Virus record (IMG/VR): IMGVR_UViG_3300050821_005819
Location: 1 to 24,629 of that record
Reading direction: 5' to 3' (one strand)
Length of the DNA stretch: 24,629 nt
Source of the DNA: a virus
Positions 1 to 18,367 of the stretch are shown here, piece after piece; position 1 is the first letter of the stretch, and each line of letters opens with the position of its first letter. The notes beneath the pieces are model-generated. The model searched no databases. It had not been told where the DNA came from and saw only the letters and a list, made by a program, of their open reading frames with translations. The position numbers were made by a program, and so were the translations under genes.

Positions 1-404
1 TCGTTCCCCAGCGTTATCTGCCCCGCTCTCTCCTGCACGATGGCGCTGTTGTTCACCGAGACTTCGCCATCCTGCATGAAGATCGAGCCGCCGTTGAGAA
101 CAGCGCCGTCGCCGTCAAGATTGAGGAGCCCGGTGTCGAACAGCGAGATGTGCCCCTTGCCCAGCGTCAGCGTGCCCTCGACGTTGAGGAACGCCGGGCC
201 GCTAAAGTCGTTGAGCGTCGCATTCGCGTCCCGCAGCGAGAGGTTGAACACGCTGTCGTCCTGCGTCACGTTGATCTGAGTCGCGGCGACGCCCGTCACC
301 GTTGCATCGTCGCCCGATCCGGGGGCGAACCCGGTGAATGGCGACCAGTTGCCCGCGTCCTCCCACGCTCCGGACGATGGGTTATTCCAGATGTAGTCGG
401 TCAT
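1..404 (-). CDS. Partial beta-solenoid-like protein, virion or surface protein candidate (N-terminal 134 aa)
   Basis: The frame is open from an ATG at 404 to the left edge, so the C-terminus is missing. A GGAGGT ribosome site lies six bases before the ATG, and the ATG overlaps the previous stop as ATGA. The protein starts MTDYIWNNPSSGAWEDAGNW and continues with short alternating hydrophobic strands rich in Asn, Gly, Asp and Thr (for example LNVEGTLTLGKG and LNGGSIFMQDG). This strand-turn periodicity is typical of beta-helix or beta-solenoid proteins. The W-x-x-x-x-NW-x-P opening resembles the N-terminal part of autotransporter-like repeat proteins. No signal peptide is visible. It is the last gene of the leftward P1 operon seen here and directly follows a DUF3383-like protein, so a structural or adhesive role is plausible. 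That role is inferred; only the fold type is suggested by sequence. Confidence 0.75.
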   Translation of the reverse strand, partial: MTDYIWNNPSSGAWEDAGNWSPFTGFAPGSGDDATVTGVAATQINVTQDDSVFNLSLRDANATLNDFSGPAFLNVEGTLTLGKGHISLFDTGLLNLDGDGAVLNGGSIFMQDGEVSVNNSAIVQERAGQITLGN

Positions 405-1903
405 CCTTTTACCTCCGTTGAACCCCAGATCGGGGTGCTTGCTCCTGGCCCGCTGTGCGTTCCAAGAGGATCTGTGATCGCGTGGCTCGTGCCTGCCGCC
501 CGGTTGGCGGTCAGGAACTCAGTGGCCATGCCCTGCGGCGTATCGGCCCACGCGGTGAACTGGTCGTTGAAGCGCGTGTCGTTGGTGATGAAGCTCCCGT
601 AATTGACCGGGTCGCCGAACTGGTCGACGTAGCTCTTGGTGAGCGTCATGAAATGGGCGAGGCTCATGTGCTGGCCGCCGGGTTCCGCCGGGAACGCGCC
701 CGACGCCTGCGTCAGGCCAAGCGCATCGGCCGCAGTGCCGGTGGGGTCGCCGCCGAACTGTGAAGGATTCTGATCGAACCCGAATTCGCCTTGCACGCTC
801 AGATCGAGAAAATCGTTGTGCTCGGTCGCCCCGATGATCGGCTGCCCGTTACGGTCCATGTAGACGCCCAGGAGGGGAGCCTTGAGCGTCATCTGCTCCT
901 CGCCGACTGCCGTCGCGTTGTTGACGATCCAGGTGTTGGCGCTCAAGGGATCGACCATGCCGGTTGCCGGCGCGAGCCCCGTCACACCGTCGCCGACGAC
1001 CTGGAGCCCGTTGGTCACCGTGCCCGAGATTACGCTGTCCACCGTGAGTACGCCGTAGGTCGCCTCAAACGTGCCGGTAACCGGATTGGGCAGATGAGCG
1101 GAGTGGAACGTCGTATAATGGCCGGGACCGCCCGCCCCGTCGATATCGTGAATGATCTGCGAGTTGGTGCCTCCCGGAATTCCTGGCCCGGTGATGATCG
1201 CGCCCACCGGCAGCGAACCGCCGCTGTCGATTTTAGTGACGGTCACCTGGGCCTTGTCGATCGTCCCTTCGAAGGTGACCGTGTGCGAGACGATATGCCC
1301 GGTGATCACCGCGGCGGTCTGCCGGTGCTGGTTGAGGTCCGCCTGGACGATCTTCGCCGCCTCGTTGATGGCGTTGTCCATCGGGCCGCTGACGCCTGAC
1401 AGGTCGATTGAGGGAGCCGAATACTGAAAGCCGTCGAACTCGACCGAAAGCGAGCCCTGGATAGCCTGCAGCTGGGCGAGCGTGTCGTTGTAGAGGTTCG
1501 CCCCGAGAATGTGCGGGCGCTGGCCCAGCGGATCGCGGGTGACGTAGAGCGTCGCGCCGGCCAGCCCGTAAACGTCGTTCGGGCCGAAGAACGTCCGCGA
1601 TTCCATGTCCTCGGTCGAGCCGACGCCGAAATAGTTCTGCACCTCCTGCACGCTGTGGAACGCCAGCGCCATGCCTTCCGGAACGATGTTCTGCCAGTCG
1701 ATGATCATGCGGTTGAGCGCGTAGGGGCTCGTGTACGTGCCTGCCGGGTCAGTGGTGGCGGCGCTGGCCCCAGCCGCGCTGAAGGTGCCCCCAGGGTCAG
1801 CGGTGGGCATCGTCGCGCCTGCGAGCGAGAACGTGCCGGCCGGATCTTTGAGGATTCGTTTCAGAACGGTGTCGTAGAAATAGCCGGGACGCGCATTAAC
1901 CAT
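401..1903 (-). CDS. DUF3383-like, beta-strand repeat-containing protein (possible virion/adhesin component)
   Basis: This 500-aa protein begins at an ATG with AAGGAG seven bases upstream; the start overlaps the preceding gene by 8 nt. Residues about 19-60 hold three imperfect repeats of the type DPAGTFSLAGA. Residues about 62-200 resemble the N-terminal part of DUF3383 (tail-sheath-like) proteins: a VQEVQNYFG segment, LGQRPHILGANL, and a strand-rich stretch with VEFDGFQYSAPSIDLSG. Residues about 208-268 and 276-345 are two copies of a common beta module (VTVTKIDSGGSLPVGAIITG and LTVDSVISGTVTNGLQVVG) found in many phage and surface proteins. The C-terminal 150 residues are unassigned. I recall similar beta-strand repeat proteins in Hyphomicrobiales genomes and prophages. 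No signal peptide is seen. Its position in the leftward operon, away from the other structural genes, is unusual. Family assignment is by pattern and moderately sure; function is inferred. Confidence 0.8.
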   Translation of the reverse strand: MVNARPGYFYDTVLKRILKDPAGTFSLAGATMPTADPGGTFSAAGASAATTDPAGTYTSPYALNRMIIDWQNIVPEGMALAFHSVQEVQNYFGVGSTEDMESRTFFGPNDVYGLAGATLYVTRDPLGQRPHILGANLYNDTLAQLQAIQGSLSVEFDGFQYSAPSIDLSGVSGPMDNAINEAAKIVQADLNQHRQTAAVITGHIVSHTVTFEGTIDKAQVTVTKIDSGGSLPVGAIITGPGIPGGTNSQIIHDIDGAGGPGHYTTFHSAHLPNPVTGTFEATYGVLTVDSVISGTVTNGLQVVGDGVTGLAPATGMVDPLSANTWIVNNATAVGEEQMTLKAPLLGVYMDRNGQPIIGATEHNDFLDLSVQGEFGFDQNPSQFGGDPTGTAADALGLTQASGAFPAEPGGQHMSLAHFMTLTKSYVDQFGDPVNYGSFITNDTRFNDQFTAWADTPQGMATEFLTANRAAGTSHAITDPLGTHSGPGASTPIWGSTEVKG

Positions 1904-2823: not shown

Positions 2824-3274
2824 CGTCAAAAAGATTGTGCAGCTGCCCTTCCCAACTCAGCGGGACTACCTTTTCCGGGACGAGCTCGGTCACCACGCCG
2901 TCAGGCCCGCGCTTGATTTCGTAACACCTGACCTTGCCGCCCTCGCGATTGAAGGCGTTGATCAGCACTGTTTCGCGCCGGTCTTCGCGATCGCGTGGCA
3001 TGAGTCTGATCGGATGACGTGTGTCTTCGTTCGCCACCCAGGCCTCGCTGATGAAGCTGTAGCTGTGGATGTTGTGCGACTTGAGCATGAAGCGAATCAG
3101 AGCGATCGCAATCGCCTTGTCGTCGTCGTTCGTCCACGGCGTGGCGATGATATCGGCTCTGCCATTCTTGTACTGAATGAGGAAGCTCGGCATGATCTGG
3201 GCATTCGGCTGCTCGATCAGCACACGCTGGGCGAACCCAAGCGCGTGGTCGACCAATTGGTCGACTGTCATCAT
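2813..3274 (-). CDS. Hypothetical protein, 153 aa
   Basis: The frame opens further upstream, but that part overlaps the HTH gene. The ATG at 3274 forms an ATGA overlap with the stop of the HTH gene, the junction type used throughout this operon; a second ATG follows at once. The protein starts MMTVDQLVDHALGFAQRV and contains an alpha/beta-looking core (IMPSFLIQYKNGRADIIATP, then KAIAIALIRFML, then SYSFISEAW), followed by a strand-rich segment and an acidic C-terminus ending LFDDDD. No catalytic motif or Cys pair is seen. The pattern resembles small conserved proteins of phage early regions with no known role. Translational coupling to the HTH protein suggests shared expression timing. Confidence 0.72.
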   Translation of the reverse strand: MMTVDQLVDHALGFAQRVLIEQPNAQIMPSFLIQYKNGRADIIATPWTNDDDKAIAIALIRFMLKSHNIHSYSFISEAWVANEDTRHPIRLMPRDREDRRETVLINAFNREGGKVRCYEIKRGPDGVVTELVPEKVVPLSWEGQLHNLFDDDD

Positions 3275-3645
3275 CGCCGCGGCCTGCGCGGGCCGCGCCG
3301 CTCGGTCAGCGCCACCTCGGCCAGGAGGAGGGCATTGACCTCCTCTACCCACTGGTCCCTGACGTAGACGCGGCGCACCTCGGCTTCGCCCATCTTGTCG
3401 AACAGGGCTCTAACCTCAGCGACCGAATTGGAGCGGCTGGAAGTGGGGTAGGAATCGGCCTCGCCGGTCAGGCTTTTGTAATAGACCGTGTTTTTGCCAA
3501 CCTTGAATACCTTGGCGATGATCGGAACCTTGACCTTGCGCCGCCAGAACCAGTGCATGGCCATGCGCTCGCCAAAGGTCAATTGATCGTCGCGTACGCG
3601 CCGCCGCGTACGCAGGATCAGAGCTTCATTCAGTTGAACATTCAT
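3271..3645 (-). CDS. HTH DNA-binding protein, first gene of the P1 operon
   Basis: This 124-aa basic protein has a helix-turn-helix-like core at about residues 25-58 (ERMAMHWFWRRKVKVP, then IIAKVFKVGKNTVYYKSLTG), similar to resolvase- or MarR-like recognition helices. A second conserved block at about 76-105 (VAEVRALFDKMGEAEVRRVY) follows. The same two blocks in the same order occur in the 230-aa protein at 5333-6025, so the two look like paralogues. The C-terminus is Arg-rich (ERRGPRRPRR). The gene starts at an ATG with AGAGGA about 11 bases upstream, and an AGGACTAT copy overlaps that ribosome site. It lies directly downstream of promoter P1, whose -10 region holds a 7-bp inverted repeat, so self-regulation is plausible. 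DNA binding is inferred from pattern only. Confidence 0.78.
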   Translation of the reverse strand: MNVQLNEALILRTRRRVRDDQLTFGERMAMHWFWRRKVKVPIIAKVFKVGKNTVYYKSLTGEADSYPTSSRSNSVAEVRALFDKMGEAEVRRVYVRDQWVEEVNALLLAEVALTERRGPRRPRR

Positions 3646-3648
3646 GAT

Positions 3649-3699
3649 GACGATAGTCCTCTTTAGGCGTCATATAGTCCTAATGACGCAGGGGATCAA
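3649..3699 (-). promoter_or_regulatory. Promoter P1 with AGGACTAT operator-like repeats
   Basis: On the minus strand, TTGATC (3694-3699) and TATATG (3671-3676) are separated by 17 bases, a good sigma70-type layout. The -10 region is embedded in ATTAGGACTATATG, the core also found in P2 and P3. A perfect 7-bp inverted repeat GCGTCAT/ATGACGC (3667-3673 and 3683-3689, 9-nt spacer) overlaps the -10. A second AGGACTAT copy lies in the leader over the ribosome site of the HTH gene. The promoter overlaps the 3' end of the gene at 3680-3865. It should drive the operon from 3645 leftward. Binding by a phage repressor or activator is inferred. Confidence 0.65.
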
Positions 3700-3865
3700 G
3701 AGGACGTCCGAAGGCGCGGGCGATTGCGTCGCGGTCGATGCGGGCGTCGACCTTGAACGAGATCGGCTCTTCGATCGTGCGCTCGGCCTCGGCCAGGATG
3801 GCGCGGTCGATCGCGCGCCGCTTGGCCCCGAAGCGCGCCTGCCAGTCGTTTTTAGGTTTGCTCAT
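3680..3865 (-). CDS. Small hypothetical protein, 61 aa
   Basis: The ATG at 3865 (MSKPKNDWQARFGAKRRAID) overlaps the end of the upstream gene by 14 nt and has GAGGAAG about nine bases before it; the longer open frame is not needed. The protein is a charged, probably helical peptide with a basic N-terminal half and no Cys or membrane segment. It is the last gene of the P2 operon; its stop TAG lies inside promoter P1, so the two transcription units abut with no terminator between them. Function unknown. Confidence 0.65.
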   Translation of the reverse strand: MSKPKNDWQARFGAKRRAIDRAILAEAERTIEEPISFKVDARIDRDAIARAFGRPLDPLRH

Positions 3866-4088
3866 CTTCGTCTTCCTCGAAATAATAATTCCGTTCGCCT
3901 TTAGGACATTCCTCGCCAAGCAGGGCGAAGCATCGCCGGATCGATGCGTCGCCCGTACCGAAGCTTTCGGTTACATGCCCGCAGCGGGTGCAGGCCACTT
4001 CGACGCCTTCGACGGGTCCGTAGTCGCCATCAAGCTCGACCTCCTCGACCGTGCAGGGCACTCGTGCTCCCCATTTATCCTTGCTCAC
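3852..4088 (-). CDS. Small Cys-containing conserved phage protein, 78 aa
   Basis: I use the GTG at 4088, which overlaps the previous stop as GTGA; this junction repeats through the operon. The protein (VSKDKWGARVPCTVEEVELD) has a CTRCGH pair near the middle followed by SFGTGDASIRRCFALLGEEC, and ends in a very acidic tail (EEDEDEQ). I recall close patterns (CxRCGHxTESFGTSxxSxRRCLAxLxxECP) as a widespread small protein of alphaproteobacterial phages and prophages, of unknown function. The Cys set (CxxC plus C-x-n-C) could bind zinc. It lies among several other small Cys-pair proteins in the P2 operon. Confidence 0.75.
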   Translation of the reverse strand: MSKDKWGARVPCTVEEVELDGDYGPVEGVEVACTRCGHVTESFGTGDASIRRCFALLGEECPKGERNYYFEEDEDEQT

Positions 4089-4291
4089 GGCGCAATCCTC
4101 AGCAAAAGCTCTGCTGCGCCATAGACCTGTTTTTCGCCGCAAGCTTCGCACCGATAGCGCCGCGCGTCAGGTTCGCACCCGCCCTGCTCGTTGCCGCATG
4201 CGAGGCAAAAGCCAGGATCGTCGAGGGTGGTCATCTGACGTTTGACCGCGTCGAGAATGCGCTCCTCGGTGATTGAGGCAGGAGCTTTCAC
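4085..4291 (-). CDS. Zinc-ribbon-like small protein, 68 aa
   Basis: The GTG at 4291 overlaps the stop of the upstream gene as GTGA. The N-terminal helix (ITEERILDAVKRQMTTLDDP) precedes two Cys pairs, CLACG and CEACG, separated by about 19 residues with a further Cys between them, then KQVYGAAELLL. This matches a common small phage protein whose conserved core reads GFCxACGxExxGCEPDARxYxCExCG. The layout is that of a small zinc ribbon. Such proteins may contact RNA polymerase or DNA, but no role is established here. A longer open frame upstream exists in the same phase but overlaps the real neighbour. Confidence 0.78.
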   Translation of the reverse strand: MKAPASITEERILDAVKRQMTTLDDPGFCLACGNEQGGCEPDARRYRCEACGEKQVYGAAELLLRIAP

Positions 4292-4491
4292 AGCGCCACC
4301 GCCTTGTGGAGATCGGCGTCCCACTGGTAGTTGACCGGGTCGTCGGACGGGACCACGCGTGTTTCGCGCACGCTGGTCCAGCGCCACGAAAGGTCGAGGA
4401 CATAGGCTTTCGCCTCGTCCTCGGTGGCGAACCGGCAGGCGTTGCCGTGCCAGTCGGGATCGCTAGTTTTGACCTCTGGTTTGTAGCTCAT
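4288..4491 (-). CDS. Conserved phage protein of unknown function, 67 aa
   Basis: MSYKPEVKTSDPDWHGNACR starts at an ATG that overlaps the previous stop as ATGA. The protein has a central helix (FATEDEAKAYVLDLSWRW) and a conserved-looking TRVVPSDDPVNYQWD segment near the end. I recognise the pattern (MSYKPEV...G N..RFAT..EA......L..RW..V..TRV.ESDDPVNY.W) from many phage genomes, where it is annotated as hypothetical. No catalytic residues or metal sites are seen. Tight coupling with the flanking Cys-pair genes suggests shared early expression. Confidence 0.8.
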   Translation of the reverse strand: MSYKPEVKTSDPDWHGNACRFATEDEAKAYVLDLSWRWTSVRETRVVPSDDPVNYQWDADLHKAVAL

Positions 4492-4814
4492 GTGCGTTGT
4501 TTCCTCTTTTCGGCGTAGTAGCCGGCGAGGAAGGCGTCGCCCTCGCGCACCGTCATTGAGTGTGCGAGCCGATTGGCGGTTTCGCGCGTCACCTCATTGA
4601 GTGCAGCGAGCATGCCATTGTGAAACGCTGCGGTGTAAGCGCCATAAGGGTCGTCGCCGCGGCATTCGGGGCAGGCGTGGGTATCCATGCCGAGATAGAC
4701 GACATCGCGGCAGTCGTATTTCATTTTGCCGCAGGCGTCGCACTCGCTGCGGTGTTCTTCATGGCGCGGATACATGCCCGTGTGGACTCCGTCGCTATCG
4801 ATCAAAATTGCCAT
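4488..4814 (-). CDS. Putative zinc-finger-containing protein, 108 aa
   Basis: The open frame extends upstream to 4868, but the ATG at 4814 (MAILIDSDGVHTGMYPRHEE) has GGAG eight bases before it and lies clear of the upstream gene, so I use it. Residues about 25-52 hold CDACG and CPECRGD, two C-x2-C pairs about 20 residues apart with another Cys between, an arrangement that can hold zinc. The second half is helical (AAFHNGMLAALNEVTRET, then a segment ending AGYYAEKRKQRT). No enzyme motif is seen. It follows the DUF6011-like gene with a 29-nt gap and precedes the 67-aa gene with an ATGA overlap. Confidence 0.72.
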   Translation of the reverse strand: MAILIDSDGVHTGMYPRHEEHRSECDACGKMKYDCRDVVYLGMDTHACPECRGDDPYGAYTAAFHNGMLAALNEVTRETANRLAHSMTVREGDAFLAGYYAEKRKQRT

Positions 4815-4843
4815 GTTCTCGACTCCAGTTGGTTCGCCTTCGT

Positions 4844-5257
4844 TCAAATTCCCATTTTCCCGGAGCATTCGGGACCATACCCGCTCCGGATGCTTTCAGG
4901 CACGGTGAGCGGGCGATTGCAGCGTCCGCAGCGGCCCATGTGATGGACCTCCAGGTTGGGCGTCTCGCGGGCCTGGACCGCCATGCGCCACCACCAGTCG
5001 AACGCCTTGGCGCTGGGCGCTTCGGCGGCGATCGTCGACTTGCGTGTACCGTGGAAATAGACGCCGCGGCGCATGAAACCGAGATAGCGGTAGTCGCTGG
5101 TATTGTCGGGCCCGGTCAGGACACTGACGAAATACATCTGCGCGTTATTTTCGGCCTGACGCACGCGATAGGTGTAGCGCGCCTGGGTCTTGAGGGAGAC
5201 GAGGGTGAATGTGGCGTTGCCCGCGAGGGCGAACATGGCCGGGTTGTCGAGTTTCAC
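4844..5257 (-). CDS. DUF6011-like zinc-binding protein, first gene of the P2 operon
   Basis: This 137-aa protein ends with CGRCNRPLTVPESIRSGYG followed by PECSGK, which I recognise as the DUF6011 signature: a CxxC pair, a conserved Pro-Glu-Ser turn, GxGPEC and a closing Gly-Lys. It occurs in many phage and plasmid proteins and is probably a small zinc-binding fold. The N-terminal 100 residues are strand-rich (NATFTLVSLKTQARYTYRV, then DYRYLGFM) and end with an AFDWWWRMA helix; this part is often found fused to DUF6011. The start is a GTG at 5257 with AAAGG about nine bases upstream. Promoter P2 lies just before it, giving a leader of about 26 nt. Biochemical role unknown. Confidence 0.85.
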   Translation of the reverse strand: MKLDNPAMFALAGNATFTLVSLKTQARYTYRVRQAENNAQMYFVSVLTGPDNTSDYRYLGFMRRGVYFHGTRKSTIAAEAPSAKAFDWWWRMAVQARETPNLEVHHMGRCGRCNRPLTVPESIRSGYGPECSGKMGI

Positions 5258-5289
5258 TGGTCTGGCCTTTGCTGGTTTTGTGTGACCCT

Positions 5290-5318
5290 CACATAGTCCT
5301 AATCAAGGACCGTGTCAA
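5290..5318 (-). promoter_or_regulatory. Promoter P2 with shared AGGACTATGTG core
   Basis: On the minus strand, TTGACA (5313-5318) and TATGTG (5290-5295) are separated by 17 bases. The spacer ends in ATTAGGAC, so the -10 region reads ATTAGGACTATGTG, nearly the same as in P1. A perfect GTCCT/AGGAC inverted repeat (5296-5300 and 5306-5310) lies within the spacer. It is placed to transcribe the 5257-to-3680 gene run. The consensus -35 suggests a strong promoter unless blocked. Confidence 0.65.
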
Positions 5319-5332
5319 GTGAGGATCTGGGA

Positions 5333-6025
5333 TTATTTCAGACGGCCCTTCGGAAAGCCGCTGAGTTCCCAGATGCCATCCAGGGCGTCAGTGCTGGAAG
5401 CGAACGGTTCACGCCCGATTGCGCCGCGCAGCTGTTCGCGGCCCCAGGAAAAATGGCCCTGATTGCTTTCGCCTTCGATGTACCATCCAGGCGGGTCGTC
5501 GCGCACTACGATGTCATAGCTTACGCCCCAATCGGGGAAATCGTGGCGACCGGCATGCTTATCGGCTTGGAGGTTTGGGCCGCGTCCGGGCCGCGCTGCA
5601 TTGCCGATATCGTGTTTCACGCGCATCAGGCGGGTGTGGATATCGTGAGTGTAATAGCGCCGCGCGAATTCTTCCTCGCCCAGCCGCTCGAACTCATTGG
5701 CTACGCGCCGGTATCGTTTGACGCGGTTAGGGTTGCGGTTCGCGTTCATGTCGCGATTGCGCCATGTCGAGCCATCGCCCATTTCGACGGTGCGCGGGCG
5801 CGGGTCGCGTGCAAGGCAGCCGCCGATTAGGCTTACGGTCGTCATGGTGACGGCGAAAGTCTTGGCGACGGTGCGCGGCGGGATTCGATTCATGACGGCG
5901 TAGAAGAGGGCGCACTGATCCGAGAAGGAAAGTTTGCGCCCGGTTCGCTCATGATGCGCGCCGGCAAGCTCGCGCACCGCGCTTTCCGGATTGAAAGGGG
6001 CCTCCAGGCCGACTGGGTTCTCCAT
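5333..6025 (-). CDS. HTH regulator-like protein with extra C-terminal domain, 230 aa
   Basis: The ATG at 6025 has AGAGGTGA about six bases upstream. Residues about 31-67 (KLSFSDQCALFYAVMNRIPP, then RTVAKTFAVTMTTVSLI) look like a helix-turn-helix. Residues 102-125 (VKRYRRVANEFERLGEEEF) match a second conserved block. Both blocks recur in the same order in the 124-aa protein at 3271-3645, although identity is low. The last 70 residues form a separate strand-rich domain (WGVSYDIVVRDDPPGWYIEG) lacking in the shorter paralogue; it could be a sensor or interaction domain. The gene has its own TTGACA promoter carrying a palindrome and lies alone between two transcription units. This fits a phage regulator, though direct proof of DNA binding is absent. 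Confidence 0.75.
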   Translation of the reverse strand: MENPVGLEAPFNPESAVRELAGAHHERTGRKLSFSDQCALFYAVMNRIPPRTVAKTFAVTMTTVSLIGGCLARDPRPRTVEMGDGSTWRNRDMNANRNPNRVKRYRRVANEFERLGEEEFARRYYTHDIHTRLMRVKHDIGNAARPGRGPNLQADKHAGRHDFPDWGVSYDIVVRDDPPGWYIEGESNQGHFSWGREQLRGAIGREPFASSTDALDGIWELSGFPKGRLK

Positions 6026-6293
6026 TTGTTCACCTCTAAAAAAAATGTTGTTTGTTCTTTTAGATTTGCATCGATGAAAATCGATGTCAAGATATTCTCT
6101 TTTACAGAGTAGGGGTAAATATTGCGCGCGAGGAAATTTGCAGAGCAGTGATTACATGAGTTGTAGGTGAATTGTGTTTTTCTCGCGCGCAATAATAGGG
6201 GCGAGTTTGGAAAGGAAAAAACACCAAACATCGCTTTGCATCGAAACATGTCGGGCTGAGAAGGTAAGCTTGCGCGCGTTTTAGAGCCTTGTC
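6026..6293. other. AT-rich intergenic region with repeats
   Basis: No credible gene is seen between the 230-aa HTH gene and the terminator at 6294. The stretch is clearly richer in A and T than its surroundings. It holds a perfect 12-bp inverted repeat ATTGCGCGCGAG (6121-6132) and CTCGCGCGCAAT (6182-6193), 49 nt apart, and a third partial copy TTGCGCGCG at 6270-6278. The 10-mer TTTGCATCGA occurs twice (6065-6074 and 6235-6244). Possible roles are an operator region, a small RNA or a replication site; none can be confirmed by eye. Confidence 0.55.
6065..6090 (-). promoter_or_regulatory. Promoter of the 230-aa HTH gene with internal palindrome
   Basis: On the minus strand, TTGACA (6085-6090) is followed by the perfect palindrome CATCGAT-TTTC-ATCGATG (6069-6086), which overlaps the last bases of the -35 and fills the spacer. 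The -10 is poor (AAATCT at a 17-base spacing). A promoter with consensus -35, weak -10 and a central operator is a common layout for regulated phage promoters. It lacks the AGGACTAT core of P1-P3, so it probably answers to a different protein. Confidence 0.5.
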
Positions 6294-6320
6294 AAAAAAA
6301 AGAGCGCTCGAAAGCGCTCT
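6294..6320 (-). terminator. Intrinsic terminator of the P3 operon
   Basis: Read on the minus strand, AGAGCGCT-TTCG-AGCGCTCT is a perfect 8-bp hairpin with a stable TTCG loop, followed at once by a run of T (the A-run at 6294-6300). It lies 24 nt after the stop of the 238-aa gene. It should end P3 transcripts and insulate the AT-rich regulatory region. Confidence 0.9.
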
Positions 6321-6343
6321 AAACGTATTCCGCAGCAAGCATG

Positions 6344-7060
6344 TCAATGCGCCATGATGGCGATATCGACACGCGCTTTGCTCGAATGCCCGCCGCAGGC
6401 GTTGCACGAAAAGCAGGTCGTTTTGAAACCGGATTCTTTCGAGGCAGGGCAGGCGATTTCGCGCGGTTGAAGCGATTCGGCCTCGGACCGCACGCGAAAC
6501 AGGCGATAGCCGAGCTTGCGAGCCTCAAGGCCTTCGGAAACGCTTTCGACGCTGGCCATGACAAGGTCGGACCATTGAGGGTCTGCAGTGCGCCAATTGT
6601 GGATGTAGCCGGTATGTCCGGCTGTTTCGGCCGAAATTTCCTGCCAGAGCGCAATCGGCGCGGCGGAAGGATTGCCGTACGAGCCAAGACGCAGCTTGCG
6701 GCCAGCGAACATGGCGCGCGCCTCGGCTGGCGTGACCTTGCGATACCGGCCGCGCTTGTATGTCGCCCAAGTGGAGCGCGGCGCTTGGAACGTGCGGACA
6801 TAGCACGGCTTCTTTTTGCCGCGCGCCTTGTAGTGGATCGGGCGCAAGCTGCAATCACCGCAGACGCTGGCGTCCTGTCCCGTCTTGACGGCAACGTGTG
6901 GTGCGACGTCGGAGCGCATGATCCATGTTTGGATCATAGCGCCAGTCTTGGTGTTGTCTGTGGTGTCTGTAAGGCCTGTGGCGATAACAGCTATGGGAGC
7001 TCCATCAATCAGCGACGCGCCTTCCCACAGGATGACGCTATTGGGGTTATGTGGTTTCAT
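6344..7060 (-). CDS. Conserved Cys-rich phage/plasmid protein, 238 aa
   Basis: The ATG at 7060 opens MKPHNPNSVILWEGASLIDG, followed by APIAVIATGL and NTKTGAMIQTWIM. I recognise this as a family common in phages and plasmids (consensus ...NSVLWxGPSxxDGxPIVxIATG...NxKTGxMxQxWIL...). Cys-rich sites follow: SVCGDCSLRP near residue 67, a CYV about 20 residues later, CPASKESG, and CFSCNACGG near the C-terminus. These probably bind one or two zinc ions. GRYRKVTPAEARAMFAGRKL and RLGSYGNPSAAP are further conserved-looking segments. Family members are annotated as hypothetical; no catalytic role is known to me. It follows a 49-aa gene and a hairpin, and is followed by a strong terminator, so it is the last gene of the P3 operon. 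Confidence 0.85.
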   Translation of the reverse strand: MKPHNPNSVILWEGASLIDGAPIAVIATGLTDTTDNTKTGAMIQTWIMRSDVAPHVAVKTGQDASVCGDCSLRPIHYKARGKKKPCYVRTFQAPRSTWATYKRGRYRKVTPAEARAMFAGRKLRLGSYGNPSAAPIALWQEISAETAGHTGYIHNWRTADPQWSDLVMASVESVSEGLEARKLGYRLFRVRSEAESLQPREIACPASKESGFKTTCFSCNACGGHSSKARVDIAIMAH

Positions 7061-7106
7061 GCTGGTTTTCCTTTGGAACTCATCAGTGTGGTCTGGCCAA
7101 CCACAG

Positions 7107-7126
7107 ACACGCGCTTGGGCGCGTGT
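7107..7126. repeat. Intercistronic hairpin
   Basis: ACACGCGC-TTGG-GCGCGTGT is a perfect 8-bp hairpin in the 71-nt gap between the 49-aa and 238-aa genes. No T-run follows on the minus strand, so it is not an obvious terminator; mRNA processing, stability or attenuation are possible. A competing stem GTCTG/CAGAC (7091-7095 and 7104-7108) overlaps its edge. Confidence 0.6.
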
Positions 7127-7131
7127 TTCGT

Positions 7132-7281
7132 TCAGCGTGTGATGGTTTGCAGCTTGGTCACCACATAGCCATTGGCGCGCATGCGAATGCGTTCATTCAT
7201 GGCTGCGACCAAAGTGTCGAATGTCTTGAAGCCTCGATACCCACGCGAGGGTGAGACGAATGAGAACTGGTAGGCCTTCAT
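7132..7281 (-). CDS. Small hypothetical protein, 49 aa
   Basis: The ATG at 7281 gives MKAYQFSFVSPSRGYRGFKT, followed by a helix FDTLVAAMNERIRMR and NGYVVTKLQTITR. GGAG lies about nine to twelve bases upstream. It is the first gene after promoter P3, with a leader of about 30 nt. It is basic, with an alternating strand-helix-strand pattern that could be a small DNA- or RNA-binding fold, but no family is recognised. The open frame can be read further upstream through the promoter, which is not credible. Confidence 0.65.
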   Translation of the reverse strand: MKAYQFSFVSPSRGYRGFKTFDTLVAAMNERIRMRANGYVVTKLQTITR

Positions 7282-7318
7282 TGGGGTTGCTCCACAGGCG
7301 CACCATGCGCCCGCACAA

Positions 7319-7346
7319 CACATAGTCCTATCAGTCCTAATGTCAA
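7319..7346 (-). promoter_or_regulatory. Promoter P3 with tandem AGGACT repeats
   Basis: On the minus strand, TTGACA (7341-7346) and TATGTG (7319-7324) are 16 bases apart. The spacer carries two copies of the shared motif: TTAGGACT followed by GATAGGACTATGTG. It is the rightmost of the three related promoters and marks the start of leftward transcription near the divergence point with the late genes. Confidence 0.65.
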
Positions 7347-7649
7347 GGCCTCGGCATCAACAAAGTGATTCCGCTACCCGTGCGTTACCCGGAATGCCTG
7401 GTCCTTGGGGTAACTTCAATGATATCAGTGACTTGCTCTGATGTGTCATCTGATTGACCATCAGATGGCACGCGTGAACGCGCTTTGTTCGCGCCTGCTC
7501 GGCGCGCGAGCGCAGCCGGCGCGAGCGCAACCAGACGGCGCGCGCGAGCGCTGTGCAGCAGCGCGTCGAACCCCCCCCTAATGGTGCCCTCTAGCGGATC
7601 CGGTTCCGGGGGTGGTACCAATCGCCTAATCCGCAAAAGTATTCCACAA
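7347..7649. other. Divergent intergenic region between early and late blocks
   Basis: About 300 bases without a supported gene. It holds GTTACCC/GGGTAAC (7384-7390 and 7408-7414), with a related GCTACCC at 7373-7379. It also holds a perfect 8-bp inverted repeat CATCTGAT/ATCAGATG (7447-7454 and 7460-7467, 5-nt loop), three GGCGCG(CG)AGCGC direct repeats (7501-7551) and a C8 run (7571-7578). I see no convincing sigma70-type plus-strand promoter for the late genes; a phage-specific or activator-dependent one may lie here. Confidence 0.6.
7501..7551. repeat. Three short direct repeats upstream of terminase
   Basis: GGCGCGCGAGCGC (7501), GGCGCGAGCGC (7518) and GGCGCGCGCGAGCGC (7537) start 17 and 19 bases apart. 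They lie about 100 bp before the terminase small subunit gene, where pac or cos recognition sites are often found. A packaging role is inference from position and iteration. Confidence 0.5.
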
Positions 7650-8141
7650 ATGGACAAAGAACATCCGCATTTAACCTTAGTCGATCACGACGCTGAGTTC
7701 GTTCCGCTCCCGTACTATCCCTGGGACGAGCGACCGCACACGGTCCCGCTCGATCCGGACGAATGCGCGACCGCGATCCACGTCGCCCACGGCTCCCTCC
7801 CCAAGGCCGCCGCCCTTCTCCGCATCCCTCTGATCCGGCTCAGCCGGGCGATTCGCGCCCATCCCCGGCTCCAGCGGGTGCTCGACGAGTCTTTCCAGCT
7901 TGCCCTGCACCGTGCCGCGGCCGTTCCGATCGACACCCTGTTCGACGAAGCCGCCGACGCGCGGCGCCTTGAATGGGCCAGCACGAAGGTGCTGCAGTCC
8001 CGCCTTGCCCAGGGCCACCCGCTCTCCCCCGCGCCTCCTTCGACCGCGCAGTCCGCCAGTCTCACGCTCAACCAGCCGAACCGCAGCATCACCTTCCGCT
8101 GGAGGACCGACGCCGACGAGCCGCCCGGTGACAGCGCCTGA
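7650..8141 (+). CDS. Terminase small subunit (putative)
   Basis: The ATG at 7650 gives 163 aa (MDKEHPHLTLVDHDAEFVPL). Residues about 38-70 (ECATAIHVAHGSLPKAAALL, then RIPLIRLSRAIRAHPRLQ) form a helix-turn-helix-like DNA-binding region. A helical stretch with AADARRLEWASTKVLQ follows, then a Pro-rich link and a strand-rich tail ending in ITFRWRTDAD, typical of TerS C-termini in this type of phage. The gene is immediately upstream of and overlaps the large subunit by 14 nt. The start has only a weak ribosome site, and the frame is open further upstream to 7485, but that part reads as low-complexity. Role: recognises the packaging site and activates the large subunit. The call depends on gene order as well as pattern. 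Confidence 0.78.
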   Translation: MDKEHPHLTLVDHDAEFVPLPYYPWDERPHTVPLDPDECATAIHVAHGSLPKAAALLRIPLIRLSRAIRAHPRLQRVLDESFQLALHRAAAVPIDTLFDEAADARRLEWASTKVLQSRLAQGHPLSPAPPSTAQSASLTLNQPNRSITFRWRTDADEPPGDSA

Positions 8142-9417
8142 ACCCGAAGAGATCGTCCTCCCTTACAAGCCGCGCCGGCACTTCGTCCCGCTGCATGCCT
8201 CCCGCGCCCGCTGGAAATTCGCCGTCTGTCACCGTCGGGCGGGCAAGACGGTCGCGCTCGCCAACACCCTGATCGCCGCGGCGCTCTTGAACAAACGGAC
8301 CACGCCTCCCCCGCGCTACGCCTATGTCGGGCCCTCTTTCGACCAGACCAAGGATCTGGTGTGGAGCTACCTCAAGCAGTACACCGCCAACATCCCCGGC
8401 GTGCGCGCCCTTGAAGGCGAACTGACCATTGTCTTTCCCGGCGGAGCCACCATCCGGCTCTACGGCGGCGCGCTCGCCTATGAGCGCATGCGCGGCATCT
8501 ACCTCGACGGCGCGGTTCTCGATGAATACCCCCTGCTCGCCCCGCAGGCGTTCACCTCGGTGGTGCGGCCGTGCCTCGCCGATTACCGCGGCTTCGCCAT
8601 CGTGTCGGGCACCTCCGCGGGCGACGACCACTTCCACAAGCTGCTGCTCAAGGCCGAGGGCGATCCCAACTGGGCGATCTTCGACATCAAGATCACCGAC
8701 ACGGCTGAGGATGCGCTAACCTTCGCCGAGGTCGAGGAGATGCGGCGCGACATGAGCACCGACGAGTTCGCCCGCGAGATGCTCAATTCCTTCGATGCCC
8801 CGGTCGAGGGGGCCTATTACGCCGAGGCGCTCAATGCGCTCCAGATGCAGAACCGCGTCGCCCGCGTCACCCCGGACCTCAACACCTCGGTCCTGACCGC
8901 CTGGGATCTCGGCATTCGCCATCTTCAGGTGATCTGGCTGTTCCAGCTTGCCGGCCGCGAGGTTCACTGGATCGACTACATCGAAGGAACCGGCAAGTCG
9001 CTCAGCCACTACACCGATCTGCTCGCCTTGAAGGCGCGCACCGGCGGCTACCAGTATCGCGCCCATCTGCTGCCGCACGACGTCGAGGTGCGCGAGCTGG
9101 CGACCGGCTCCAGCCGGCGCATCGAGCTTGTTTCCCTGCTTGCCGAGCCGGTGATCACCGTGCCGCAGCATTCGACCGAGGACGGCATCACCGCGACGCG
9201 GGGCGTGCTCGGCGTCTCCTGGTTCGACGAGACGGCGTGCCGGCGCGGGCTCGCTCGGCTGCGCTCCTACCGGCGCGGCAAGTCGGGCGCTGCGGTGCCC
9301 GACGAGGCCGAGGACGCCGCCGACGCCTTCCGCACCGGCTGCGTCGGAATCCCGATGATATCCAGTGCTCATTTCGGCTCGGGCCGCCTGCGCCGGAAGC
9401 TCAGAGGCCTCGTGTGA
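8128..9417 (+). CDS. Terminase large subunit (ATPase/nuclease)
   Basis: The GTG at 8128 gives 429 aa and overlaps the small subunit gene; the longer open frame is the small subunit region read in another phase. Walker A is CHRRAGKT at residues 34-41. Walker B is GAVLDE at 128-133 with the catalytic Glu. The coupling motif SGTSAGDD follows at about 165. The nuclease half shows TAWDLGIRH at about 255, a mid-domain HDVEVRE, and DEAEDAADAFR near the C-terminus, supplying the acidic residues of an RNase H-like fold. Length and motif order are complete for a TerL. The enzyme pumps DNA into the prohead through the portal encoded downstream and cuts it. No break or missing motif is seen. Confidence 0.96.
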   Translation: MTAPEPEEIVLPYKPRRHFVPLHASRARWKFAVCHRRAGKTVALANTLIAAALLNKRTTPPPRYAYVGPSFDQTKDLVWSYLKQYTANIPGVRALEGELTIVFPGGATIRLYGGALAYERMRGIYLDGAVLDEYPLLAPQAFTSVVRPCLADYRGFAIVSGTSAGDDHFHKLLLKAEGDPNWAIFDIKITDTAEDALTFAEVEEMRRDMSTDEFAREMLNSFDAPVEGAYYAEALNALQMQNRVARVTPDLNTSVLTAWDLGIRHLQVIWLFQLAGREVHWIDYIEGTGKSLSHYTDLLALKARTGGYQYRAHLLPHDVEVRELATGSSRRIELVSLLAEPVITVPQHSTEDGITATRGVLGVSWFDETACRRGLARLRSYRRGKSGAAVPDEAEDAADAFRTGCVGIPMISSAHFGSGRLRRKLRGLV

Positions 9418-9850: not shown

Positions 9851-12661
9851 ATGGAACGCATCTTCGCGCACTTCAAGGACCAGACGTCCCCCGCGACTAG
9901 CGCTTACGATCCTTCCGACCCTGAAAGCTATAAAAACTACATTCGCTCAATGATGAGCGACAGTAGAGATTACGAAACATCGTTTCTCTGCGTCGATCGC
10001 CAGAACGCTCAGCTTTACTATTATGGCATGCAACCGTGGATTGGCCCCTACAATCCCGGTTCTCCCTACATCGGCGAAGACCCCAACGCCACGCTGGGCG
10101 AGATTCTCAACAAGGACAACAACAACCAGCCCAACCGATCGACTTACGTCTCGACCGACGTGCGCGATGCGGTGATGATGATGCTGCCCTCGCTGGTGCG
10201 CCTGTTCGGGGCTTCGGAGAGCCCGGTTTTCCTGGTGCCTCGCACTCAGGAAGAAGTCGACACCGCCGAGCAGGCGACCGATTATGTGAATTATACGTTC
10301 TGGAATGATAATCCGGGTTTTCTGATTCTATACGGCGCGATCAAGGATGCGCTCACCGTCAAGACCGGATTCGTTAAATGGTGGACGGACGATTACAAGG
10401 AAAAGCGGCGCAAGAAGTTCCTCAACGTCACCGCCGAGCAGATCCAGATGATCCTCTCGGAGGATTCTAGCGCGAAAATACTGGAGGTCGGCAATCCGGT
10501 ACCTCAACCACAGCTCCCCCCGCCCGCGATGGCTGCACCGCCCCCTGGTCCGCCGCCTCCACCGCCTGTTCCCGGTCCACCCCCCGGAGCCGGGCCGGTT
10601 CCGCCAAGCGGGCCGCCTGTACCGCCTCCGGGTCCACTCGCTGCTCCAGCGCCAGGACCGATGGCTGGAGCGCCGCCGCCTGGAGCGCCGCCTGCGCCAG
10701 TTGGGCCAGGAAATCCGCCTCCTGGAGGCCCTCCACCCGGAGCAATGGCGGGAGCTGCGCCGCCGCCTCTGCCAGCCAATCTAACTCAGCCGCCGCCGCC
10801 GGTCTTCGACCACGTCGTGATCGAGTTCGAAGTCTCGAAGCCGATCATCAAGGTTGCCGGCGTTCCGCCCGAGGAGATGCGCCTCGATCGCTACGCGCGC
10901 ACCTTTCGCGATTCCCGTCTCGTCGGCCACGAGCGCATCGTGCCGGTCGATCAACTGATTGCGATGGGCTACGACCGCGATCTCTGCCTGCAGCACATCC
11001 AGACTTCGGAGAGCGCCTTCACCGTCGAGCCGCAGTTGCGCAACGCTGCACGCTTCATGGGCACCCGGATGGGCGACGGCGTCAAATACGGCGAGTGGTA
11101 CATCAAAGCCGACAAGGACGGCGACCGTGTGCCCGAGATCCGTCACATCTGCACGATGGGCGACGATCATACGATCGTCGCCGACGAGGAGGCGAACAGG
11201 GTCAAGTTCGCGCTTTTTTCATGCGACCCGATCTCTCACACGATCGTCGGCGACAGCCTTGCGGACTTCACCGAGGACATTCAGCGCATCAAGACCAACA
11301 TGACGCGCGCGATCCTCGACTCTGCGGCCGAATCGATCAATCCGAAGACGGTGCTCAATGAGCTGACGACCACCGTCGACGATGCGCTGAACGACGATCT
11401 CGGCGCTGTGATCCGCACGCGCGGCGATCCGCGCGCGGCGGTCATGTTCTCCAATGTGCCGTTCCTCGGGCAGCAAGCTTTGCCGGTCCTGCAGATGCTC
11501 GATGCAACTTTGCAGCGGCGCACCGGGCTCTCGGATGCGGCGAAGGGTCTCGATCCCAAAGCATTGCAGTCTTCTACGATGCTCGGGGTCGAGGCCGTCA
11601 TCAACGGCGCGCAGGAGCGCATCGAGCTGGTCGCGCGCGTCTTGTGCGAAACCGGCTTCAAAGACTTGTTTGTCGGGCTCTACAACGAGATCTGCGAGAA
11701 TCCTAATCAGCAACGGACGATCAAGATCCGCGGCAAGTTCGTGCCTTACGACACTGGCACGTTCGACGCTTCGATGGCGGTCGAGGTCAACGCCAATCTC
11801 GGCAAGGGCTCAGACCTCACCCGCATGCTGGCGCTCAACCAGATCAAACAGGATCAGCAATTGATCGTCACGACTTACGGGCTCTCCAATCCCGTGTGCG
11901 GCATTCCGGAAATGTTGAACACGATCACCGACATGCTGGCGCTCGCCAACGTGAAGAACGTCGGGCGATACTTCAAGACGCCAACGCCGCAGCAGATGAT
12001 GGCGATTCAGAATGCGCCCAAGCCGCCAGATCCGATGGCGATGGCGGCGCAGGCGCAGATGGAGAAGGTGCGGAGCGATACGTCGAAGGCGATCGGTCAG
12101 CAGAATCTCGACCGCGAGAAGATGCAGACAGAGAATCAGTTCAAGCACGAGCAATTGAAGGCGAAGACCGCCTACGAGTTCCAGAAGCTTGAGATCGAGG
12201 GGGCCAAGGCGGGCGTAGATCACGCGAGCAAGCTCGGTGCGCTCGCGAGCCAGCTCATCAAAACCCAGTCGGATAGCGACGCGCAGGATCAGCAGTCGCA
12301 AGTCGACATGGCCAACGCGCAGAACGATTCGGACGCCCAGGCGCAGCAGCATCAGCAGGCCCAGAGCGACGCCCAGTTGAAGGCGATGCAATTGGCGTCG
12401 CAGCACATGCAGAAAATGCACCAGATTAATTCGCAGCACGTCCAGTCGATGACGCAGATGGCGGCTCAGCATCATCAGGCGATGACTGGCCACGCCGTGA
12501 AGGGCGCGCAAGTCGTTGCCGGCGCGCTTTCCGGTGATGCCGACCGCGACCATGAATCGCACGAGAACGAGCTTGATCGCAGCCATGATGCGCTCACCAC
12601 TGCGGCGACCCTCTCGCAACAGGAGAAGATCGCCAAGATGAAGCCGGCACCGCGGCCATGA
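9851..12661 (+). CDS. Portal protein with proline-rich insert
   Basis: This 936-aa protein lies after terminase and before scaffold and capsid. Residues about 20-215 and 320-700 match the large podoviral or P22/SU10-type portal pattern: YKNYIRSMMSDSRDYETSFL, DVRDAVMMMLPSLVRLF, FWNDNPGFLILYGAIKDAL, ISHTIVGDSLADFTEDIQRI and MLDATLQRRTGLSDAAKGL. Twelve copies would form the ring at the capsid vertex that passes DNA and binds terminase. Residues 216-318 are an insert of about 100 residues, about half proline with Gly and Ala. The last 220 residues are a Gln/Ala/His-rich coiled-coil-like tail (QLKAMQLASQHMQKMHQINS). The ATG at 9851 has only a weak ribosome site. The stop overlaps the next gene by ATGA. 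The portal call is secure; the insert is unusual. Confidence 0.93.
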   Translation: MERIFAHFKDQTSPATSAYDPSDPESYKNYIRSMMSDSRDYETSFLCVDRQNAQLYYYGMQPWIGPYNPGSPYIGEDPNATLGEILNKDNNNQPNRSTYVSTDVRDAVMMMLPSLVRLFGASESPVFLVPRTQEEVDTAEQATDYVNYTFWNDNPGFLILYGAIKDALTVKTGFVKWWTDDYKEKRRKKFLNVTAEQIQMILSEDSSAKILEVGNPVPQPQLPPPAMAAPPPGPPPPPPVPGPPPGAGPVPPSGPPVPPPGPLAAPAPGPMAGAPPPGAPPAPVGPGNPPPGGPPPGAMAGAAPPPLPANLTQPPPPVFDHVVIEFEVSKPIIKVAGVPPEEMRLDRYARTFRDSRLVGHERIVPVDQLIAMGYDRDLCLQHIQTSESAFTVEPQLRNAARFMGTRMGDGVKYGEWYIKADKDGDRVPEIRHICTMGDDHTIVADEEANRVKFALFSCDPISHTIVGDSLADFTEDIQRIKTNMTRAILDSAAESINPKTVLNELTTTVDDALNDDLGAVIRTRGDPRAAVMFSNVPFLGQQALPVLQMLDATLQRRTGLSDAAKGLDPKALQSSTMLGVEAVINGAQERIELVARVLCETGFKDLFVGLYNEICENPNQQRTIKIRGKFVPYDTGTFDASMAVEVNANLGKGSDLTRMLALNQIKQDQQLIVTTYGLSNPVCGIPEMLNTITDMLALANVKNVGRYFKTPTPQQMMAIQNAPKPPDPMAMAAQAQMEKVRSDTSKAIGQQNLDREKMQTENQFKHEQLKAKTAYEFQKLEIEGAKAGVDHASKLGALASQLIKTQSDSDAQDQQSQVDMANAQNDSDAQAQQHQQAQSDAQLKAMQLASQHMQKMHQINSQHVQSMTQMAAQHHQAMTGHAVKGAQVVAGALSGDADRDHESHENELDRSHDALTTAATLSQQEKIAKMKPAPRP
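10496..10804 (+). repeat. Low-complexity Pro/Gly/Ala tract inside the portal gene
   Basis: The DNA is a run of CCG, CCT, CCA and GGA/GCG codons coding PPPGPPPPPPVPGPPPGAGP-like sequence. Fifty-two of about 101 residues are proline by my count. The tract splits the portal core between a strand ending LEVGNP and one starting FDHVVIEFEV. Codon choice is mixed (CCT, CCA, GGT, GGA), unlike the strongly GC3-biased flanks. Confidence 0.85.
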
Positions 12662-13101
12662 CGCCGGATTGGCTGCAGAAGATTCTCGATCAGCATGCGC
12701 TGACCTTGCCGCGCAGCGTCAACAACAATTTGCCGCCCGGATCGTATGATGAGAATTTTTATGGACCCAACATAGAGGCGGAACAGAACTGGTGGCATAA
12801 CCCGAATCCTGGGCCTTTGCAGGACTTCTCCGATCCGGGAGTTCACCCCGCTTTCAGGGATCCTTATTTTTCGCCTCAACAATCGAAGTCGACCGCTCTC
12901 GTGCCGGTGTCTCAACGATCGTTGCCGCCGCCGCCCGGCGTTGGTTCTTCAGTCATGAACGCGCTTGTTCAGCGCGTGGGTGCTCGGGGTGGACCATTGG
13001 GTCTTGGTTTGACGATGGCGATGCAGCCTACGCCGACAGCGCCGCGCTCAATGGACGAAGCACCGTCATGGAGCTGGCCACAAGGGGCTTATTCGCCATG
13101 A
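12658..13101 (+). CDS. Pro/Asn-rich protein with conserved C-terminal tail, copy 1
   Basis: The ATG overlaps the portal stop as ATGA. The 147-aa product starts MTPDWLQKILDQHALTLPRS, continues as a Pro/Asn/Gly-rich, probably disordered region with Trp and Phe scattered, and ends in a hydrophobic turn and the segment MAMQPTPTAPRSMDEAP-SWSWPQGAYSP. The same tail, 24 of 28 residues identical, closes the protein at 17825-18367, which also starts with a PDW helix, so the two are paralogues. Codon use is less GC3-biased than the neighbours. The pattern is unknown to me. Position between portal and scaffold suggests a virion or assembly role, perhaps an ejected or connector-bound protein. Confidence 0.75.
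   Translation: MTPDWLQKILDQHALTLPRSVNNNLPPGSYDENFYGPNIEAEQNWWHNPNPGPLQDFSDPGVHPAFRDPYFSPQQSKSTALVPVSQRSLPPPPGVGSSVMNALVQRVGARGGPLGLGLTMAMQPTPTAPRSMDEAPSWSWPQGAYSP
13015..13101 (+). repeat. 87-bp repeat, copy 1
   Basis: This segment matches 18281-18367 at about 73 of 87 bases. It codes the shared C-terminal tail and ends with the ATGA start-stop overlap of the next gene. About six of the differences are silent third-position changes, which suggests selection on the protein rather than recent copying. Confidence 0.85.
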
Positions 13102-17652: not shown

Positions 17653-17825
17653 GCCCGCTCGGCATCATCCTCGTCGTCGTTTTGATCGTCGTGCTGTTCG
17701 GCGGGCTCGGCGGCGGAACGATCGGCCCCTGGCCCTATGGCTACGGCGTCGGGCACTACGGCATCGGCGTCGTCGGGGTGATTCTCATTGTGGTGATTGT
17801 GCTTTTGCTGATGGGAAGAATCTGA
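17649..17825 (+). CDS. DUF3309 small membrane protein, 58 aa
   Basis: The frame runs from ATG at 17649 to a stop at 17825, overlapping both neighbours. The product is a hydrophobic hairpin: MSPLGIILVVVLIVVLFGGL, a Gly-rich turn, GPWPYGYGVGHYGIG, and a second helix VVGVILIVVIVLLLMGRI. This is the DUF3309 layout (two short membrane helices around a WPY-GYG loop), common in Hyphomicrobiales. In phages it often sits in the lysis region. A role as a second holin, holin modulator or membrane stress protein is inferred. Codon usage matches the GC-rich neighbours. Confidence 0.82.
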   Translation: MSPLGIILVVVLIVVLFGGLGGGTIGPWPYGYGVGHYGIGVVGVILIVVIVLLLMGRI

Positions 17826-18367
17826 TGGAAACCGGACCTCTTCCGGATTGGTTTGAGGCGCTGAAGACTCAGTTTGCGGACAATAATCGGGTGCCGCCGG
17901 TGACGCCCGACTATTCAACGATGAACCCGAGGATGTCGCCGACAGAGTGGAATAATTTCACTCATTTTGCATCCCAGCCTCCAGGGGTGACCTTAAATCG
18001 GAGCGGCGGGGCTAGATTTTCTTATTTGCCGTCCGATCTTCCGCCCAATACAGAGCCGTGGTTCCGCGCGGATTATGGAGGCGGGTTTAGTCCGCCGACG
18101 CCGCCCAGGTCTGGGCCGCCCCCCGATCCTTTTGCGATTCGAAAGATGATGCTGGGGCTGGATCCGGGGACGGCGAATTTACCGCCTGATACTCCGATTG
18201 GCACTCAGCCTAATGTGCTCGGCGCTCTTGCTCAGCGTTATGCTGGCGCTGTGGCGGGTCCGGTCGGTGCGGGCTTGATTATGGCGATGCAGCCAACCTC
18301 GACAGCGCCGCGCTCGATGGACGAAGCGCCGCGTTGGAGTTGGCCGACCGGGACTTATTCGCCATGA
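17825..18367 (+). CDS. Pro-rich protein with conserved C-terminal tail, copy 2
   Basis: The ATG shares its A with the DUF3309 stop (TGATG). The 180-aa product starts METGPLPDWFEALKTQFADN, is rich in Pro, Asn, Ser and Gly in the centre (PPTPPRSGPPPDP), has a hydrophobic Ala/Gly stretch (AQRYAGAVAGPVGAGLIMAM) and ends QPTSTAPRSMDEAP-RWSWPTGTYSP. The tail and the PDW start match the protein at 12658-13101. Codon use is mixed compared with flanks. No known family. It precedes the head-tail adaptor and overlaps it by ATGA, as copy 1 does with its own downstream gene. A virion or ejection role is possible but unproven. Confidence 0.76.
   Translation: METGPLPDWFEALKTQFADNNRVPPVTPDYSTMNPRMSPTEWNNFTHFASQPPGVTLNRSGGARFSYLPSDLPPNTEPWFRADYGGGFSPPTPPRSGPPPDPFAIRKMMLGLDPGTANLPPDTPIGTQPNVLGALAQRYAGAVAGPVGAGLIMAMQPTSTAPRSMDEAPRWSWPTGTYSP
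18281..18367 (+). repeat. 87-bp repeat, copy 2
   Basis: This is the second copy of the segment at 13015-13101, again coding the shared tail and ending in the overlap start of the next gene (TATTCGCCATGA in both copies). Confidence 0.85.

Follow-up and report, generated by a model that had tools for sequence, protein, structure and literature searches.

A conserved AGGACT motif at the leftward early promoters of uncultured podovirus-type phages is a predicted operator

Do the leftward promoters of an uncultured soil phage share a binding site for one regulator and, if so, which protein binds it? The window, the whole 24.6-kb stretch of virus record IMGVR_UViG_3300050821_005819, is a fragment of such a phage. 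Its rightward genes encode TerL, portal, major capsid and adaptor proteins; the latter three match SU10 families, and the phage is of the podovirus type with an SU10-like head. Among annotated phages, Ochrobactrum phage OH (vB_OspP_OH, MT028492, Wolominvirus; 53%) is nearest by TerL. The TerL search gave 71 loci, about 30 of them near (mostly 79–85% identical) and about 40 distant (mostly 40–65%). In phage OH the replication genes and TerL are on opposite strands, and in relative G031 DUF5906, Pam3_gp34 and SNF2-helicase proteins lie beyond HTH1, the smaller of two HTH proteins in this region. Because these layouts correspond, the leftward genes upstream of TerL are taken as the early region, a label that rests on synteny, not expression. 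A family A DNA polymerase was considered as an early-region marker and dropped, being present solely in OH. No Rfam match was found in 3500–7700 and no tRNA in the window. At the left end of the window, a DUF3383 gene (401–1903, minus strand) follows a conserved gene (1896–2402); it has no homologue in the searched relatives, there or elsewhere in their records. In the structural region, the proteins encoded at 12658–13101 and 17825–18367 share near-identical tails (AMQPTxTAPRSMDEAPxWSWPxGxYSP), a duplicated C-terminus. A long insert rich in proline and glycine (GPPPPPPVPGPPPG..., window about 10500–10800) is present in the portal protein.

The leftward features are summarized in Table 1. The three promoters described in the initial annotation, with −35 and −10 elements and spacers of 16–17 nt, are found at their positions on the minus strand. 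The alpha-proteobacterial sigma-70 promoter consensus is CTTGAC-N17-CTATAT (PMC2873474), and P1–P3 are of this type (TTGAC, CTATAT, spacer of 16–18), with TTGAT in P1 and the shorter spacer in P3. The further elements reported there are also present: the inverted repeats of P1 and P2, the extra AGGACTAT in the P1 leader over the possible ribosome site, and a further AGGACT copy within the P3 spacer. A fourth leftward promoter probably precedes the HTH2 gene (TTGACA 6090–6085), and it lacks the AGGACT motif. This separate promoter-like region of HTH2 (6026–6343, with TTGACA at 6085–6090) contains CATCGATTTTCATCGATG. The proposal that the three leftward operons are coordinated thus holds for the presence of the motif on P1–P3, and HTH2 is a further leftward unit whose upstream region is without it; the regulation itself and the transcription starts are predicted.

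Table 1. Leftward promoters, sites and genes of the window
Feature	Position	Strand	Remarks
HTH1	3271–3645	-	124 aa; candidate operator-binding regulator; recognition helix residues 51–59 (KNTVYYKSL)
Extra AGGACTAT in P1 leader	3653–3660	-	overlaps possible ribosome-binding site (AGAGGA) of HTH1
P1 promoter	3671–3699	-	TTGATC 3699–3694, 17-nt spacer, TATATG 3676–3671; drives HTH1
P1 AGGACT	3676–3681	-	in P1; GTCCT upstream at 3701–3705
P1 7-bp inverted repeat	GCGTCAT 3689–3683 / ATGACGC 3673–3667
AGGACTAT at P1, P2 and P3	3674–3681, 5293–5300, 7322–7329	-	exact copies
DUF6011 protein gene	4844–5257	-	first gene after P2; also follows P2 equivalent in L105
P2 promoter	5290–5318	-	TTGACA 5318–5313, 17-nt spacer, TATGTG 5295–5290; drives DUF6011 gene
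P2 5-bp inverted repeat	GTCCT 5310–5306 / AGGAC 5300–5296
HTH2	5333–6025	-	230 aa; homologous to HTH1; divergent recognition helix
Terminator-like hairpin	6301–6320		after P3 unit
P3 transcription unit	6344–7281	-	49-aa ORF 7132–7281 and conserved gene 6344–7060 (phrog_2554)
P3 promoter	7319–7346	-	TTGACA 7346–7341, 16-nt spacer, TATGTG 7324–7319
P3 AGGACT copies	7324–7329 and 7333–7338 (spacer)	-	direct repeat
TerL	8131–9417		rightward

The exact AGGACTAT occurs four times in the window versus 0.13 expected, and 0 of 100 shuffles reach four; all copies are on the minus strand, in or just below P1–P3. The degenerate 11-mer with two mismatches allowed is at chance level in the window (5 versus 3.9 expected), and the signal is therefore the exact core. 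CTATRT, the 3′ part of this core, corresponds for the most part to the −10 element of alpha-proteobacterial sigma-70 promoters (PMC2873474), so that the informative extra shared part is TAGGA. The core proposed across the −10 is thus exact at all three promoters, while part of it is simply the −10 element itself.

Conservation was examined by scanning 15 near records, with the window excluded, for promoters of the form TTGACN-16..18-TA, masking the −35 and −10 hexamers and counting all remaining hexamers. At the 80 promoter-like sites, AGGACT is found 36 times versus 0.9 expected and TAGGAC 31 times versus 0.49. They are the two most enriched hexamers, far above all others, and AGGACT is present in 12 of the 15 records. 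The enrichment p-values are too strong, as they count sites in related records as independent; what can be relied on is the fold enrichment, together with the presence of AGGACT in 12 records. Repeating the count on deduplicated near loci gave 40 versus 1.0 and 41 versus 0.64. The motif is therefore enriched at relatives' promoters with the index genome left out, and neither a chance-level count nor a lack of conservation in relatives, the outcomes that the initial annotation had set against itself, was found. The distant TerL group shows no enrichment (no AGGACT and three GTCCTA at promoter-like sites), phage OH has no AGGACT at its −35 and −10 elements, and AGGACT promoters are rare or absent in one subclade (G001, G003, G005 and L013). 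Several OH (L107) promoters share another word before the −10 (GTGTGC or GTGG), perhaps an operator of OH's own. The syntenic record L105 retains sites at all three orthologous promoters. The P2 inverted repeat recurs there (GTCCTtgttatgGGAC), and no counterpart of the P1 7-bp inverted repeat was seen in it. An HNH-endonuclease-like ORF lies in L105 (4570–4995) between the P1-equivalent promoter and HTH1, so the P1 unit of this relative may have acquired a mobile gene.

We compiled 33 promoters by hand for the arrangement of the sites; these were picked for carrying a site, so the fraction with a site is uninformative. Counted from the first −10 base, the starts of the sites concentrate around −36, −16, −5 and +6, with a range of −41 to +16, and both orientations occur. 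Two or three sites are present in 19 promoters. The commonest arrangement, TTGACT-AGGAC-N7-AGGAC-TAT, is found at P3 of L075, L151, L152 and L153 and at internal promoters of G006 and G018. The site is kept between orthologous promoters, but not its position, orientation or copy number: direct repeats 12 or 9 apart, inverted pairs and a triple GTCCT all occur. This variability suggests that the sites are retained by function, and it speaks against a fixed-geometry activator. A 10.5–11 bp phase of sites relative to the −10 is only suggestive (R 0.52–0.57, p about 0.001), being weak and taken from a period scanned post hoc.

AGGACT is thus a conserved, promoter-linked motif by computation, to which a single, shared switch protein very probably binds. 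The binder is most likely a small phage-encoded DNA-binding protein, and the best candidate from co-occurrence and autoregulatory placement is HTH1. Nearly all near records that include the region encode one HTH1 and one HTH2. The AlphaFold2 model of HTH1 (mean pLDDT 80) is a three-helix HTH with helix 51–59 in the recognition position. K51, N52, T53 and Y55 are invariant in 12 sequences (KNTxY), and the helix as a whole is nearly invariant in the family; such a frozen helix would fit the frozen half-site. In the 80 nt before the gene, AGGAC is present for 12 of 15 HTH1 and 3 of 16 HTH2 cases (Fisher 9e-4; background 11.5%), and the full AGGACT upstream for just 5/15 and 0/16, respectively. 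The distant TerL group, where the motif is not enriched, is also without HTH1, and OH has an HTH2 homologue (p08) and neither HTH1 nor the motif at promoters, although few evolutionary events lie behind this co-occurrence. Counted against HTH1 are G001, G003 and G005, which keep the HTH1 helix core yet hardly use the site. Pfam HTH_38 and HTH_23 are each matched by 8 of 12 HTH1 members (best E 1e-6 and 6e-6); the HTH1 of the window has no match, and that of G031 (L139) is below the curated cut-off. The HTH1 model had no PDB match at E<0.001 in a fold search, and HTH1 belongs to no known family that would settle its specificity.

Binding by HTH2, or competition of HTH1 and HTH2 for the sites, is a rather improbable alternative. 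In its favor, HTH2 is an HTH1 homologue whose gene is found in this region of nearly all relatives and directly upstream of P2, but the HTH2 recognition helix has no invariant residue and diverges even among genomes that share AGGACT; the site counts upstream of its gene and the motif-free OH, given above, point the same way. Palindromes upstream of HTH2 were considered as a second operator and dropped, as most are no better than shuffles; in the CATCGATTTTCATCGATG region of the window, 7 of 40 shuffles are as good, and the palindrome of L012/L105 is stronger (1 of 40). A host alpha-proteobacterial regulator could also bind AGGACT, the phages having adopted a host site. Promoters of host sigma-70 type agree with this, and a host factor would also explain the site-poor subclade, perhaps with another host. 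We consider it unlikely, as a scan of 85,462 species with one strict architecture, which may not have included the true host, gave no bacterial promoter with the tandem operator, the bacterial matches being two simple TAGGAC repeats. The exact pattern is found in eight viral contigs, all within this phage family, which fits the earlier suggestion of an undescribed phage operator. No earlier description of the site was found in the literature, and the matches listed for TAGGACTA with promoter include no phage study.

That the sites serve an activator or an anti-terminator loading element, as for lambda Q or T4 MotA, seems very improbable. Lambda Q binds in the promoter spacer, where many of the present sites lie, and the weak phasing would also agree; however, a fixed-geometry activator does not tolerate the observed range of positions and orientations, and the promoters have good −35 and −10 elements, so that activation should be unnecessary. 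Chance or common descent alone, with similar promoters inherited without a regulator, is scarcely credible. Some promoters are indeed orthologous and the −10 part is sigma-70 consensus, but the enrichment is about 40-fold without the window, and between orthologous promoters the sites differ in place, orientation and number.

Lambda Cro, Mu Ner and, at early promoters, phi29 p4 are phage repressors that turn off early genes. The present system resembles them in having a small HTH protein whose gene adjoins its own promoter, in multiple operator copies over the −35 and −10 of early promoters and in predicted autoregulation, and differs in its loose site geometry. Neither sequence nor fold comparison linked HTH1 to these three families. 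Tyrosine integrase (PF00589) is found in 0 of 15 records, many of these fragments, so the temperate trait of a Cro-like circuit is not seen and the case for an immunity repressor is weakened. The C-boxes of restriction-modification systems, for example that of C.Esp1396I (PMC4041747), consist of inverted-repeat sets that precede the control genes. They share with our system the repeated short GAC/GTC half-sites at promoters and a small autoregulated HTH regulator, whereas spacing and orientation of the AGGACT sites vary and fixed-spacing paired inverted repeats were not found; none of the HTH1 members scanned matches a C-protein family. Phage OH is alike in terminase, capsid, genome layout and HTH2 homologue, and differs in lacking HTH1 and the motif. 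Promoters are not mentioned in the paper describing it (PMC7139368).

On balance, we favor AGGACT as an operator half-site bound by a phage HTH protein, most likely HTH1, which would repress P1–P3 and itself. The half-site, usually within TAGGACTA with its CTA overlapping the −10, would be placed on the leftward early promoters. HTH1, made from P1, would bind one to three copies that overlap or flank the −35 and −10 or lie in the spacer, and would block RNA polymerase. Sites over or flanking these elements in any orientation suit a steric repressor, not a fixed-contact activator, and we infer repression as the sign of regulation. P1, P2 and P3 would shut down together while HTH1 limits its own synthesis. 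Because P1 precedes HTH1, the simplest circuit would be a delayed shut-off of early promoters with negative feedback. A doubtful extension is a paired circuit in these apparently virulent phages, a two-repressor switch without lysogeny in which HTH1 keeps a frozen specificity and HTH2 diversifies at its separate promoter; the companion idea, that HTH1 operators turn over freely in number, orientation and place, is just as tentative.

The motif is real and conserved, and appears to be an undescribed operator of a familiar type, for which HTH1 is a good candidate regulator. This yields a predicted regulon with a named candidate regulator in a phage group represented here solely by metagenomes, and shows that cross-genome promoter comparison can read regulatory code in uncultured phages. 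If true, the operator and HTH1 would be a new repressor–operator pair, testable without culturing phage or host.
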